Below, in pieces: positions 10,229 through 17,248 of a DNA stretch of 38,430 nucleotides. The notes below the pieces were generated by a model, which did no database searches, was not told where the DNA came from, and worked only from the letters and a program-made list of their open reading frames with translations. The DNA comes from an uncultured Bacteroidales bacterium (GTDB lineage Bacteria; Bacteroidota; Bacteroidia; Bacteroidales; Paludibacteraceae). The stretch spans positions 1 through 38,430 of the forward strand of contig ONEZ01000019.1 of assembly GCA_900316995.1 (NCBI GenBank). Reading direction: 5' to 3'. Every line of letters begins with the position of its first letter. Positions within the stretch are counted from its first letter, which is position 1. The position numbers and the translations under genes are program-made.

Positions 10229-11596
10229 TTACTTAGGCTGTAGTTCAGCAATCTTTGCAAGATTCTTATCAATCTCAGATTGTGGAACCTCATAGTTGGA
10301 AAGCTGACCATCCATATACTGACGGTAAGCCACCATATCAATAAGACCATGGCCTGAGAGGTTAAAGAGAATAGTCTTCTCTGTGCCCTCCTCCTTGCAT
10401 TTGAGAGCCTCACGAATAGCAGCAGCAATAGCGTGTGAAGACTCAGGAGCAGGAATAATACCCTCGCACCTTGCAAATAATGTGGCAGCGTCAAAAGTCT
10501 CAAGCTGAGGAATATCCTGAACCTCTATCATACCGTCTTTAAGCAGCTGGCTTACAATCTGACCTGCACCATGGTATCTCAAACCACCTGCGTGAATGCT
10601 CGCCGGCTCAAACTCATGACCCACTGTGTACATAGGGATAAGCGGAGTATAACCTTCTGTATCACCAAAGTCATACTGGAACTTACCTCTTGAGAGCTTA
10701 GGACAGGAAGCTGGCTCAGCAGCAATAAAACGTGTGTTTTTACCATCCACAAAGTTATGGCGCATAAATGGCATGGCTATACCGCCAAAGTTACTGCCAC
10801 CGCCAAAGCAAGCAATAACCACATCAGGGTAATCACCTGCCAAATCCATTTGTTTCTCAGCCTCCAGACCAATGATAGACTGGTGAATCATCACATGGTT
10901 CAGCACACTGCCAAGGGTGTATTTTGTGTCAGGATTCTTAATAGCCTCCTCCACAGCCTCAGATATGGCCATACCAAGGCTACCAGCTGTGCCAGGGAAC
11001 TGCTGCTGCATCTTACGTCCTATCTCAGTCTCATTGCTCGGCGATGCAAACACAGTGGCACCGTATGTGTTCATAATGGAGCGGCGGAAAGGCTTCTGCT
11101 CAAAACTAACCTTTACCATAAACACTCTAAGGTCAAGACCAAAGTGCTTACAAGCCACACTCATGGCACTACCCCACTGACCTGCGCCAGTCTCTGTGGT
11201 AATGTGTTTTGTACCCTCAATCTTATTAAAGTACGCCTGAGGAATGGCAGAGTTCAGTTTGTGTGAACCCACAGGGCTTACACTCTCATTCTTGAAATAA
11301 ATCTTAGCAGGAGTGTCAAGAGCCTTTTCAAGCCCCGATGCACGGACAAGCGGAGTAGGACGATATATTCTATAAAGATTGTAAACCTCTTCTGGTATCT
11401 CAATCCAGCGTTCCTGACTAACCTCTTGTTCACACAGACCCTTTGCAAAGATTGGGCTCAGGTCATCAATTGTAACTGGCTTTTTGGTTGCAGGATGTAG
11501 TACTGGAAGTGGCTTATTGGGCATATCAGCCATAATATTGTACCACATTTTCGGCATATCGTTTTCTGCCAACATAATCTTCTTTGTAAGTTTCAT
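10229..11596 (-). CDS. trpB: Tryptophan synthase beta chain, TrpB2 type
   Basis: This PLP enzyme condenses indole and serine to tryptophan. The length (455 aa) and N-terminus (MWYNIMADMPNKPLPVLHP) mark the TrpB2 subgroup rather than classic TrpB. Lys113 in GSHKLNSA is the Schiff-base lysine. TETGAGQWGSA is the catalytic Glu region, CFGGGSNFGG binds PLP phosphate, and PAPESSHA is the conserved late motif. No trpA or other trp genes are nearby. TrpB2 proteins are often thought to salvage indole or work apart from TrpA. Here the gene is preceded by a Trp-rich leader peptide, an antiterminator and a terminator (11690-11815), which points to control by tryptophan supply. ATG 11596 is chosen; a second Met is at residue 8. 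Confidence 0.95.
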   Translation of the reverse strand: MKLTKKIMLAENDMPKMWYNIMADMPNKPLPVLHPATKKPVTIDDLSPIFAKGLCEQEVSQERWIEIPEEVYNLYRIYRPTPLVRASGLEKALDTPAKIYFKNESVSPVGSHKLNSAIPQAYFNKIEGTKHITTETGAGQWGSAMSVACKHFGLDLRVFMVKVSFEQKPFRRSIMNTYGATVFASPSNETEIGRKMQQQFPGTAGSLGMAISEAVEEAIKNPDTKYTLGSVLNHVMIHQSIIGLEAEKQMDLAGDYPDVVIACFGGGSNFGGIAMPFMRHNFVDGKNTRFIAAEPASCPKLSRGKFQYDFGDTEGYTPLIPMYTVGHEFEPASIHAGGLRYHGAGQIVSQLLKDGMIEVQDIPQLETFDAATLFARCEGIIPAPESSHAIAAAIREALKCKEEGTEKTILFNLSGHGLIDMVAYRQYMDGQLSNYEVPQSEIDKNLAKIAELQPK

Positions 11597-11689
11597 AGAT
11601 AATTTAATTTTAGAATAATTACAGAGTTAAATAATCACAATTTAAGCACATCAAACACACAGACAGAAGAGAGTTTTTCACATAAAAAA

Positions 11690-11728
11690 GAGAGTTACAG
11701 GTGGGTTCCCGTAACTCTCATTTTATGT
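11690..11728 (-). terminator. Intrinsic terminator of the trp leader
   Basis: Read on the minus strand, GAGAGTTAC (11719-11711) pairs perfectly with GTAACTCTC (11698-11690) around a 12-nt loop, and a run of six T follows (11689-11684). Flanking ACATAAAA and TTTTATGT extend the stem past a small internal loop. It lies 93 nt before trpB. The whole loop is complementary to an upstream segment, so this is more than a plain operon end. Confidence 0.88.
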
Positions 11729-11762
11729 CAATTCAAATAACTGCAAAAGGGAGCACCCACCT
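11699..11762 (-). promoter_or_regulatory. Candidate antiterminator pairing of the trp leader
   Basis: The minus-strand segment 11762-11749 (AGGTGGGT-GC-TCCC) is complementary to GGGAACCCACCT at 11710-11699. This gives 8 plus 4 bp interrupted only by the 2-nt GC bulge. The partner is exactly the 12-nt loop of the terminator hairpin, so a full helix should be sterically incompatible with the 9-bp terminator stem. The segment starts at the last base of the leader peptide stop codon. A terminating ribosome would therefore cover it and one stalled at the Trp-Trp codons would not. Confidence 0.75.
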
Positions 11763-11815
11763 TACCAAGTAAAGCGACGCCACCAATAATAGCTATTTGA
11801 ACAAACTCTAAACAT
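11762..11815 (-). CDS. Trp leader peptide (17 aa)
   Basis: ATG (11815-11813) opens a 17-codon frame encoding MFRVCSNSYYWWRRFTW, ending at TAA (11764-11762). It contains tandem Trp codons (11785-11780), a third Trp as last sense codon, two Tyr and two Phe, a composition expected only by design of an attenuator peptide. It lies 12 nt after the rpmF stop and 219 nt before trpB. No strong ribosome-binding site is visible (AGAAAGAG precedes the ATG), as usual in this phylum. I see no consensus promoter directly upstream, so transcripts may come from the yceD promoter through rpmF. A longer overlapping frame on this strand is unrelated. Confidence 0.8.
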   Translation of the reverse strand: MFRVCSNSYYWWRRFTW

Positions 11816-11827
11816 GCTCTTTCTAAT

Positions 11828-12016
11828 TTATGCCTCTTCTGTCTCTTTTGAAACCGCCAACTTACCACGATAGTAGCCGCATGCGCCGCATACTGTGTGA
11901 TAGATATATGGAGCACCGCAATTTGGGCAAATTGCTACAGTTGGAGCCACTGCCACGTCATGAGTTCTACGCTTGGCAGTTCTGGTTTTTGATTGTCTTC
12001 GTTTAGGATGTGCCAT
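11828..12016 (-). CDS. rpmF: 50S ribosomal protein L32
   Basis: L32 is a small component of the large ribosomal subunit. The sequence opens MAHPKRRQSKTRTAKRRTHD, the standard N-terminus, and carries an intact zinc ribbon with Cys30, Cys33, Cys43 and Cys46. The length of 62 aa is normal. It follows yceD by 19 nt, the usual pairing. In many bacteria fatty-acid genes come next; here the trp leader and trpB2 follow instead. Confidence 0.96.
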   Translation of the reverse strand: MAHPKRRQSKTRTAKRRTHDVAVAPTVAICPNCGAPYIYHTVCGACGYYRGKLAVSKETEEA

Positions 12017-12035: not shown

Positions 12036-12554
12036 TTATTTCTTATCAAGTAGAGCTTTCAGCCCTTCCCATCTGGGATCTACAGCATCTTCTGTTTCTG
12101 TAAGTTGCTCTCTTGCCGTGTAACTCTCAAGTACATTTCCCATCTGCTCGTCACACTCACCGTCTTCATGCACTCTCTGAATTGGCAGCGCAAGCTCAGC
12201 CATTTCATATATATTCCACTCTATATCAACACCTGTGTCAGAAGGGCTCAAAAGAACCAAATCCTCATCATCGTAATCAAGGCCGTCATCATCTTTGGCT
12301 CTCAACTGCATCTCCGCCTCAACTGGCATGTCCAACATTCCAAGACACCTGTCACAAACCACTCTGACTGTTCCATCCAAGCGTATGTCAATGCTGTAGC
12401 CATCTCCCAGCCTTCTAACCTCTACATCTACATTCAAATCACCACCCTCAATATCAGGTTTCTCATCATCAAAGAACTCATCACTCACAGTAAACAGCTC
12501 ATTATGAGGAAATTTCTTAAGTGATCTCAATTCAACAAAGTACTTTTTGCTCAT
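12036..12554 (-). CDS. yceD: YceD/DUF177 family protein
   Basis: This is a small acidic protein of the DUF177 family, which is linked to 23S rRNA accumulation or large-subunit biogenesis in several bacteria and plastids. Diagnostic features are the central VVCDRCLGMLDMPVEAEMQL motif, the acidic DDDGLDYDDEDLVLLSP stretch and the NIYEMAELALPIQRVH segment. The length of 172 aa is typical. It is the first gene of a transcript that includes rpmF and possibly trpB, and has a consensus promoter 19 nt upstream. Some family members keep a second CxxC; here only CDRC is clear. Confidence 0.9.
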   Translation of the reverse strand: MSKKYFVELRSLKKFPHNELFTVSDEFFDDEKPDIEGGDLNVDVEVRRLGDGYSIDIRLDGTVRVVCDRCLGMLDMPVEAEMQLRAKDDDGLDYDDEDLVLLSPSDTGVDIEWNIYEMAELALPIQRVHEDGECDEQMGNVLESYTAREQLTETEDAVDPRWEGLKALLDKK

Positions 12555-12572: not shown

Positions 12573-12603
12573 CAAAAGTACAACATATTTCAAACATACG
12601 CAA
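12573..12603 (-). promoter_or_regulatory. Bacteroidota-type promoter for yceD-rpmF
   Basis: On the minus strand TTG (12603-12601), 20 nt, then TACTTTTG (12580-12573) fits the consensus. Initiation near 12566 leaves a leader of only about 12 nt before yceD. It is the nearest clear promoter upstream of the trp leader. Confidence 0.75.
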
Positions 12604-12629
12604 AAAAACTTTGCACTTTTTTTTAATTC

Positions 12630-17216: not shown

Positions 17217-17247
17217 CAAAGGTAATTATTTTTTCACACACCCGCAA
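17217..17247 (-). promoter_or_regulatory. Bacteroidota-type promoter for pyrH-frr
   Basis: On the minus strand TTG (17247-17245), 20 nt, then TACCTTTG (17224-17217) fits the consensus. The TTG is the end of the U-run of the supercluster terminator. Initiation near 17210 gives a leader of about 17 nt. Confidence 0.8.
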
Positions 17248-17248
17248 A

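Follow-up and report, generated by a model that had tools for sequence, protein, structure and literature searches.

Sequence and folding evidence for a probable ribosome-mediated tryptophan attenuator upstream of trpB2 in Bacteroidales, with an antiterminator predicted to capture the terminator apex

Introduction

Between rpmF and a trpB2 gene, the 38,430-nt stretch of Paludibacteraceae DNA analysed here (hereafter 'the window') carries a short reading frame with tandem Trp codons, followed by a U-tailed hairpin. Does this interval hold a complete ribosome-mediated tryptophan attenuator, and how does its layout compare with that of E. coli? In the E. coli trp attenuator, terminator and antiterminator are mutually exclusive and the position of the ribosome decides which of them forms. 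TrpB2, in turn, is usually thought of as a salvage enzyme. An earlier reading of the sequence alone (the original prediction) proposed that the window holds a complete attenuator of this kind upstream of trpB2; our analysis supports it, as both frame and complementarity recur in relatives and a folding model switches at the Trp codons. Taking sequence and model together, we put the probability that the leader is a ribosome-mediated transcription attenuator, making trpB2 expression dependent on charged tRNA-Trp, at roughly 0.88.

The locus and its transcription

All genes concerned lie on the minus strand. The rpmF group begins with a YceD family protein of 172 aa (12036..12554; PF02620, 62.2 bits against a cut-off of 33.2), followed by rpmF itself, encoding the 62-aa 50S ribosomal protein L32 (11828..12016; TIGR01031, 78.6 bits; stop codon 11830-11828), directly 5′ of the leader. 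The gene expected to be regulated (10229..11596) was assigned with NCBIfam models to the trpB2 type, scoring 712.3 bits with NF009057 (cut-off 366) and 624.6 bits with TIGR01415 (cut-off 518.85), above the curated cut-off in both cases; we take 'TrpB2' to be the appropriate label for these TrpB-like models.

Promoters were sought with the consensus TTTG N17-24 TANNTTTG, which we take to be of Bacteroidota type. The closest exact match upstream on the same strand is a candidate promoter 5′ of yceD-rpmF (12573..12604, minus), with another minus-strand match at 17217-17248, and TANNTTTG does not occur on the minus strand from 12573 to the trpB2 start. The consensus is a weak one, with five matches in the window on both strands where 1.64 are expected. 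The sequence suggests that the transcript starts 5′ of yceD-rpmF and that polymerase gets to the leader and trpB2 by reading through from rpmF; because the nearest match to this weak consensus precedes yceD, gating of read-through from the rpmF operon is likewise a suggestion.

Leader frame, terminator and competing helices

The leader peptide ORF MFRVCSNSYYWWRRFTW has 17 codons (11762..11815, minus) and reads ATG TTT AGA GTT TGT TCA AAT AGC TAT TAT TGG TGG CGT CGC TTT ACT TGG TAA (11815-11762), with its ATG at 11815, tandem TGG codons at 11785-11780, a terminal TGG at 11767-11765 and TAA at 11764-11762. The frame predicted between rpmF and trpB is thus real, tandem and terminal Trp codons included, and every coordinate given for it was correct. 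It is followed by an intrinsic terminator (11684..11719, minus), consisting of a hairpin at 11719-11690 and a T-run at 11689-11684. This hairpin had been described as a 9-bp stem with a 12-nt loop; it reads better as a 12-bp stem with the 6-nt loop AACCCA, the 9 bp being the lower part of the stem. By sequence, the interval contains an intrinsic terminator 5′ of trpB2 and a short leader ORF whose tandem codons specify the amino acid that the downstream gene makes or handles, two of the features that mark the attenuator class. Against dinucleotide shuffles the fold of the leader RNA has a z-score of -5.62, and none of 200 shuffles folded as well.

A post-stop segment, AGGTGGGTGCTCCC (11749..11762, minus; hereafter a), is complementary to the terminator apex, GGGAACCCACCT (11699..11710, minus; hereafter a′), with p = 0.01 against shuffled spacers. 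It had been proposed to abut the stop codon and to pair with the whole loop. Its place and its complementarity were borne out, but the first base of the segment is actually the final A of the stop codon, and the segment competes with the loop plus the top three stem pairs, taking in both arms. The duplex a:a′ (-19.1 kcal/mol) and the terminator hairpin (-18.1 kcal/mol) are about equally stable.

Frame, segment and terminator were all found as predicted, but two helices had been overlooked. P0 joins a 5′ arm within leader codons 5-9 (TTCAAATAGCT, 11791..11801, minus) to AGTTATTTGAA (11732..11742, minus), and its complementarity has p = 0.01. P1 joins the codons right after the tandem Trp codons (TCGCTTTAC, 11769..11777, minus; p = 0.08) to GTAAGGTGG (11757..11765, minus), which overlaps the antiterminator segment by 6 nt, so that the segment is predicted to be hidden when P1 forms. 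Both 3′ arms rest on the fold as well as on the complementarity test. An E. coli-like 'segment 1' does therefore exist, in the form of P0 and P1; as a consequence, the ribosome-free state should also terminate.

The distances also bear on translational control, in which the leader would set ribosome loading on trpB2 rather than termination. Leader and trpB2 presumably share one transcript, and reinitiation at leader peptides has been proposed elsewhere (in the part of PMC4833913 available to us). Against this stand the 165 nt that separate the leader stop from the trpB2 start, with the U-tailed terminator in between, and the complementary segments themselves, which involve the terminator and not the trpB2 start; we consider this reading very unlikely.

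Recurrence of leader and complementarity in relatives

TrpB2 relatives were drawn from whole genomes, regions and named GTDB contigs (the best 80 of 527 for the last); among order-level genomes, 104 of 295 had a TrpB2 match at E<=1e-120. Counting as leaders only ATG-started frames of 6-45 codons with WW, and leaving W-x-W frames uncounted, we found leader ORFs in 66 of the 189 distinct regions upstream of trpB2; the reverse strand gave 3/189, and mononucleotide shuffles 1.25 on average. The 123 regions that had no WW leader include three of the window's own genus (L007, L008 and L009). Short W-x-W frames (WRW, WCW, WSW) also occur in the 450 nt 5′ of trpB2 (L015, L027, L091, L142, L211, L213 and others) and, by their sequence, may be additional attenuators that a search for WW overlooks.

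A U-tailed hairpin was detected downstream in 59 of the 66 WW leaders, and the seven others were dropped from the complementarity tests. The stretch after the Trp codons was complementary to the hairpin at p<=0.05 (dinucleotide shuffles) at 42 of the 59 loci. When partners were swapped among 51 non-redundant loci, true partners stood out for both a:a′ (z=14.3) and P0 (z=10.3), with none of 2000 permutations reaching either value, while the own partner was the single best in only 12/51 (a:a′) and 9/51 (P0). Within 18 loci grouped as Paludibacteraceae-like, z was 4.1 for a:a′ and for P0, reached in one and none of 2000 permutations, respectively. Taken locus by locus the helices are less regular: P0 had p<=0.05 at only 22/59 loci and P1 at 14/59, and P0, P1 and a:a′ were significant together at 3/59; for P1, p was 0.02-0.08 in nine of the ten other sequences of alignment A2 and 0.31 in L039.

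Covarying stems had been named as a check in relatives, and the outcome was divided. Pair-preserving changes on both sides were found for 4/7 pairs of P1 and 6/10 consensus pairs of the terminator (10/17 in total), and RNAalifold recovered P1 and the terminator from the sequence alignment. P0 was absent from that consensus and was therefore tested by complementarity instead. The a:a′ pairing was mostly conserved rather than covarying across the 11 closest sequences, its covariation score being reached by 76/500 shuffles and its percentage paired by 58/500; as this is not clearly above shuffles, we base the argument on the broader set used for partner swapping. The original prediction had also said in advance that it would fall if neither the peptide frame nor the loop complementarity were conserved in relatives; Trp-codon frame and complementarity both recur.

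These data bear directly on the plainest reading, that the hairpin is simply the terminator of the rpmF operon and the Trp-rich frame a chance one, untranslated or irrelevant. The hairpin does lie right behind rpmF and makes a good intrinsic terminator, and in the three same-genus genomes mentioned above (L007, L008, L009) trpB2 is intact and lacks a WW leader. Such a terminator would lead one to expect neither the recurrence of the frame, nor partner-specific complementarity in a:a′ and P0, nor the Trp-positioned dip in predicted termination described below. Some WW leaders, moreover, have no rpmF found ahead of them: across loci L001-L149, at E<=1e-6, rpmF precedes trpB2 in the 12 genomes of the own genus whose upstream sequence is long enough and in the locus of no other genome, matching named loci being copies of own-genus contigs. 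We regard a plain terminator as very unlikely.

Ribosome position in a folding model

The remaining question for the attenuator reading is whether ribosome position could decide between the two structures. In the model, an assumed ribosome footprint (-17 to +13 around the A-site codon) was blocked codon by codon while the growing RNA was folded. When the A site held one or other of the window's tandem Trp codons, the predicted probability of a:a′ was 0.96-0.98 up to 4 nt past a′, and that of the terminator 0.00; at 7 nt past a′ the Trp-codon stall still gave 0.82-0.89 for a:a′. With the ribosome at the stop codon or absent, the terminator reached 0.85-0.86 at 4 nt past a′. The model thus reproduces the predicted behaviour, in which a ribosome at the Trp codons frees the antiterminator and one at the stop lets the terminator form. 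At full transcript length the terminator wins whatever the state of the ribosome, and so the switch must be kinetic.

The same holds more widely. Over 51 leaders, mean terminator probability was 0.17 with the ribosome stalled at W and 0.61 with it at the stop; by codon it ran at ~0.4 well 5′ of the Trp run, 0.17 on the run and ~0.6 from six codons past it. From W to stop, terminator probability rose by >0.2 in 43/51 leaders and fell by >0.2 in none, although the terminator was slightly likelier at W than at the stop in two (L076, L204). Shuffling the spacer between Trp codons and hairpin abolished the switch (15/153, against 44/51 unshuffled, the reference being a ribosome at least six codons past W, or at the stop if there was no room for that). 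The E. coli trp attenuator showed a shallow dip in this model, at the right codons (0.76 to 0.67), a dip so small that the model should not be read as quantitative. Within it, terminator and antiterminator exclude one another as ribosome position dictates, in line with the partner-specific complementarity.

Modelled termination drops for a stall anywhere between one codon ahead of the first W and three codons past it, as would be expected if the leader sensed stalling in general (caused by an antibiotic or by another amino acid) and the Trp codons were incidental. The W run recurs in divergent leaders whose flanks vary (WW being itself the selection criterion), and the downstream genes are Trp genes, both of which point away from general stall sensing; we think it extremely unlikely.

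Distribution within the genome and the genus

The element was also followed with a search model, R1, trained on 11 trpB2 leaders with the window's included. In the window's own genome, the trpBEGDCFA operon lies on another contig than trpB2, and in the 432 nt scanned upstream of it there is no short ATG frame containing W; R1 has no match at the trpB1 region at E<=1, and its sole match below E 0.3 in this genome is that of the window, itself a training sequence. By eye, the region 5′ of trpB1 (L112 9500-9932) shows the promoter-like box TACTTTTG close before trpBEGDCFA and an inverted repeat, GTGGCTAA...TTAGCCAC, with no T-run. Matches to PF01212, a tryptophanase-type family, numbered seven in this genome (83% complete), four of them over the cut-off and the best at E 1e-8, a superfamily-level result that leaves Trp breakdown undecided.

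Among same-genus genomes, 10/16 have a strong R1 site 5′ of trpB2 (E 4e-14 or better), nine of which are training sequences and one, in G010, is not. In another genome of the genus (G005) the arrangement is the reverse of that in the window's genome, with a WW leader, MNLFGANNTNWWRSQSNNCE, before trpB1 (L239 1271-1433) and none at trpB2 (L009), where by eye a hairpin with a T-run lies behind rpmF, with no WW frame. In L007 and L008 (genomes G014 and G015) another gene stands between rpmF and trpB2 and there is no leader; the intervening ORF of L007 encodes 329 aa with an end that is FabH-like by eye, and that of L008 is similar. A FabH-type ORF (PF08541, PF08545) is also found in L236 (G017), followed by an R1 leader near the contig end.

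R1 sites outside the training set precede trpB2 (G010, G022), trpB1 (e.g. G016, G026, G035, G005) and trpE (G030). Before trpE in G030 there are two consecutive matches (L237 1653-1770 and 1794-1933, minus; E 2.9e-5 and 1.9e-7), the second frame starting ATG AAC AAT TCG AAC TTA CAT ATT TGG TGG, and from its sequence this double site looks like tandem Trp attenuators. A weak match in G039 (L238 1095-1228, E 0.0088) carries the short frame MKNMTNINRWW before a trpG-trpB1 pair. One further match (L240, E 0.013) was taken as chance, having no W-containing short frame.

Register of the antiterminator along the terminator

We expressed the target of the antiterminator as a register, the centre of a′ relative to the hairpin apex, with negative values towards the 5′ arm. 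The register is 0 in the window, at the apex, and -7 in E. coli trp, on the 5′ arm; in six of the eight other same-genus leaders the target is loop plus 3′ arm (+2.5 to +3.5). Eleven leaders from genomes of the window's family gave a register of at least 0 in ten cases, with p<=0.05 in 8/11, whereas over all 42 significant leaders the register was at least 0 in 16 and negative in 26. In seven Alistipes/Rikenellaceae leaders the register falls between -5 and -7, as in the classical layout, and six of these have a within the ORF; two further leaders from this group (L077, L079) had no detected terminator. In leaders of the Alistipes type (L083, L092, L094, L099, L100, L110), a lies within the leader ORF, starts 38 nt before the ORF end and targets the 5′ arm. 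At the ten fetched sites of the known RNA family RF01692 the register was positive in nine, and of the seven with p<=0.05, six were positive.

The layout had been described as unlike that of E. coli, and it is, but it is not unique, since RF01692 sites have a similar register. In terms of sequence, loop capture is real, differs from E. coli and is common to a known family, and the register differs from lineage to lineage.

Discussion

We infer from these results that the leader is translated, that transcription terminates or is antiterminated in the cell and that the choice responds to tryptophan. Polymerase, probably arriving from the yceD-rpmF operon, would transcribe the 17-codon leader. 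With ample Trp, the ribosome would reach the stop codon and cover a, or depart and let P0 and P1 re-form and hide it; with a covered or hidden, the terminator would form and the transcript end between rpmF and trpB2. When charged tRNA-Trp is short, the ribosome would halt at the tandem UGG codons, covering the 5′ arms of P0 and P1 and freeing a, which could then grab the emerging terminator apex before the 3′ arm is complete and allow read-through into trpB2. This would be the 1:2, 2:3, 3:4 logic of E. coli, with '3' shifted from the 5′ arm to the apex.

In many Bacteroidales, such a switch would link TrpB2 with a lack of tryptophan. In a single genus, most of the species examined have it at trpB2 and another has it at the trpB1 operon, which makes the division of labour between TrpB1 and TrpB2 directly testable. 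Two features are surprising: the moving target of the antiterminator, and the placement of the switch on trpB2 behind rpmF rather than on the biosynthetic operon. The first suggests that an antiterminator under ribosome control can work without taking the 5′ arm and that capture of the apex or 3′ arm may suffice; the related leaders offer a natural series for how termination is beaten in time. A broader view, for and against which we see about equal odds, is that Bacteroidales possess a wide superfamily of Trp attenuators, for the most part unannotated, whose antiterminator target slid from 5′ arm to loop to 3′ arm while the logic stayed unchanged; in the window's genus one copy would have become a mid-operon gate, so that the end of the rpmF transcript serves as an entry, controlled by Trp starvation, to a TrpB2 that stands alone and is uncoupled from a biosynthetic operon that has no switch.

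Comparison with known systems

The E. coli trp attenuator (trpL, NC_000913) shares with the window a short leader with tandem Trp codons and differs in its antiterminator, which takes the 5′ arm (-7) there and the apex (0) here. The family RF00513, which we take to be the E. coli-type Trp_leader, had no gathering-level match in the window and was absent from the matches at E<=5 on 11600-11900; no Rfam family at all matched the window at gathering level, and R1 in turn did not match E. coli trpL. Six Rfam matches at E<=5 on those 301 bases, all far under their cut-offs, were taken as chance.

A precedent for the gene is found in Corynebacterium diphtheriae, where Trp attenuators described as classical in the accessible part of that account have been predicted before trpB1EDGC and trpB2A (PMC1262725). 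That organism belongs to the Actinobacteria and its trpB2 is joined to trpA, whereas trpB2 stands alone here. In Bacteroidota, leader-peptide attenuation has been suggested for amino-acid operons of F. psychrophilum (PMC9723704) and for sORFs in long 5′ UTRs of B. thetaiotaomicron (PMC7366714); the parts of these accounts available to us mention neither a trpB2 leader nor how the antiterminator is laid out. For the fhsA motif, a weak riboswitch candidate, the terminator stem-loop is proposed to pair with a preceding hairpin, blocking termination (PMC11109978), a pairing akin to that in the window, with no leader peptide mentioned in the portion available. Our literature search, mostly at the level of abstracts, returned neither a Bacteroidota attenuator for trpB2 nor a leader-peptide antiterminator that captures the terminator loop; the loop-capture layout may already be known.

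The closest relative is RF01692 itself, the Bacteroid-trp RNA of Weinberg et al. 2010, listed for Bacteroidetes in Table 1 of that account (PMC2864571) and, in the available text of a second source, placed 5′ of the F. psychrophilum trp operon and likened to the E. coli leader (PMC6414381). The RF01692 model gave no match in the window at its gathering cut-off of 49 bits, none in the window's own genome at E<=0.01 and nothing at E<=1 on 15 trpB2 loci; because the family cut-off is not reached, the element in the window is not filed under RF01692. The model did match 10 of 61 relatives at E<=0.01, four of them above the cut-off, at sites 5′ of trpB1 (nine) or trpE (one), and R1 finds all ten of the fetched sites (E 3.6e-10 to 1.3e-4, as rough values). 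These sites differ from the window in lying before trpB1 or trpE rather than before trpB2 behind rpmF, and in an antiterminator pairing that is typically GUGAGU:ACUCAC there and AGGUGGGU:ACCCACCU here. They share with it a WW or WWW leader peptide, pairing around the leader 3′ end and a U-tailed terminator, in the same order, together with a post-Trp segment complementary to the terminator loop plus 3′ arm. The trpB2 leader and RF01692 are the same kind of element, and they are probably related by descent.
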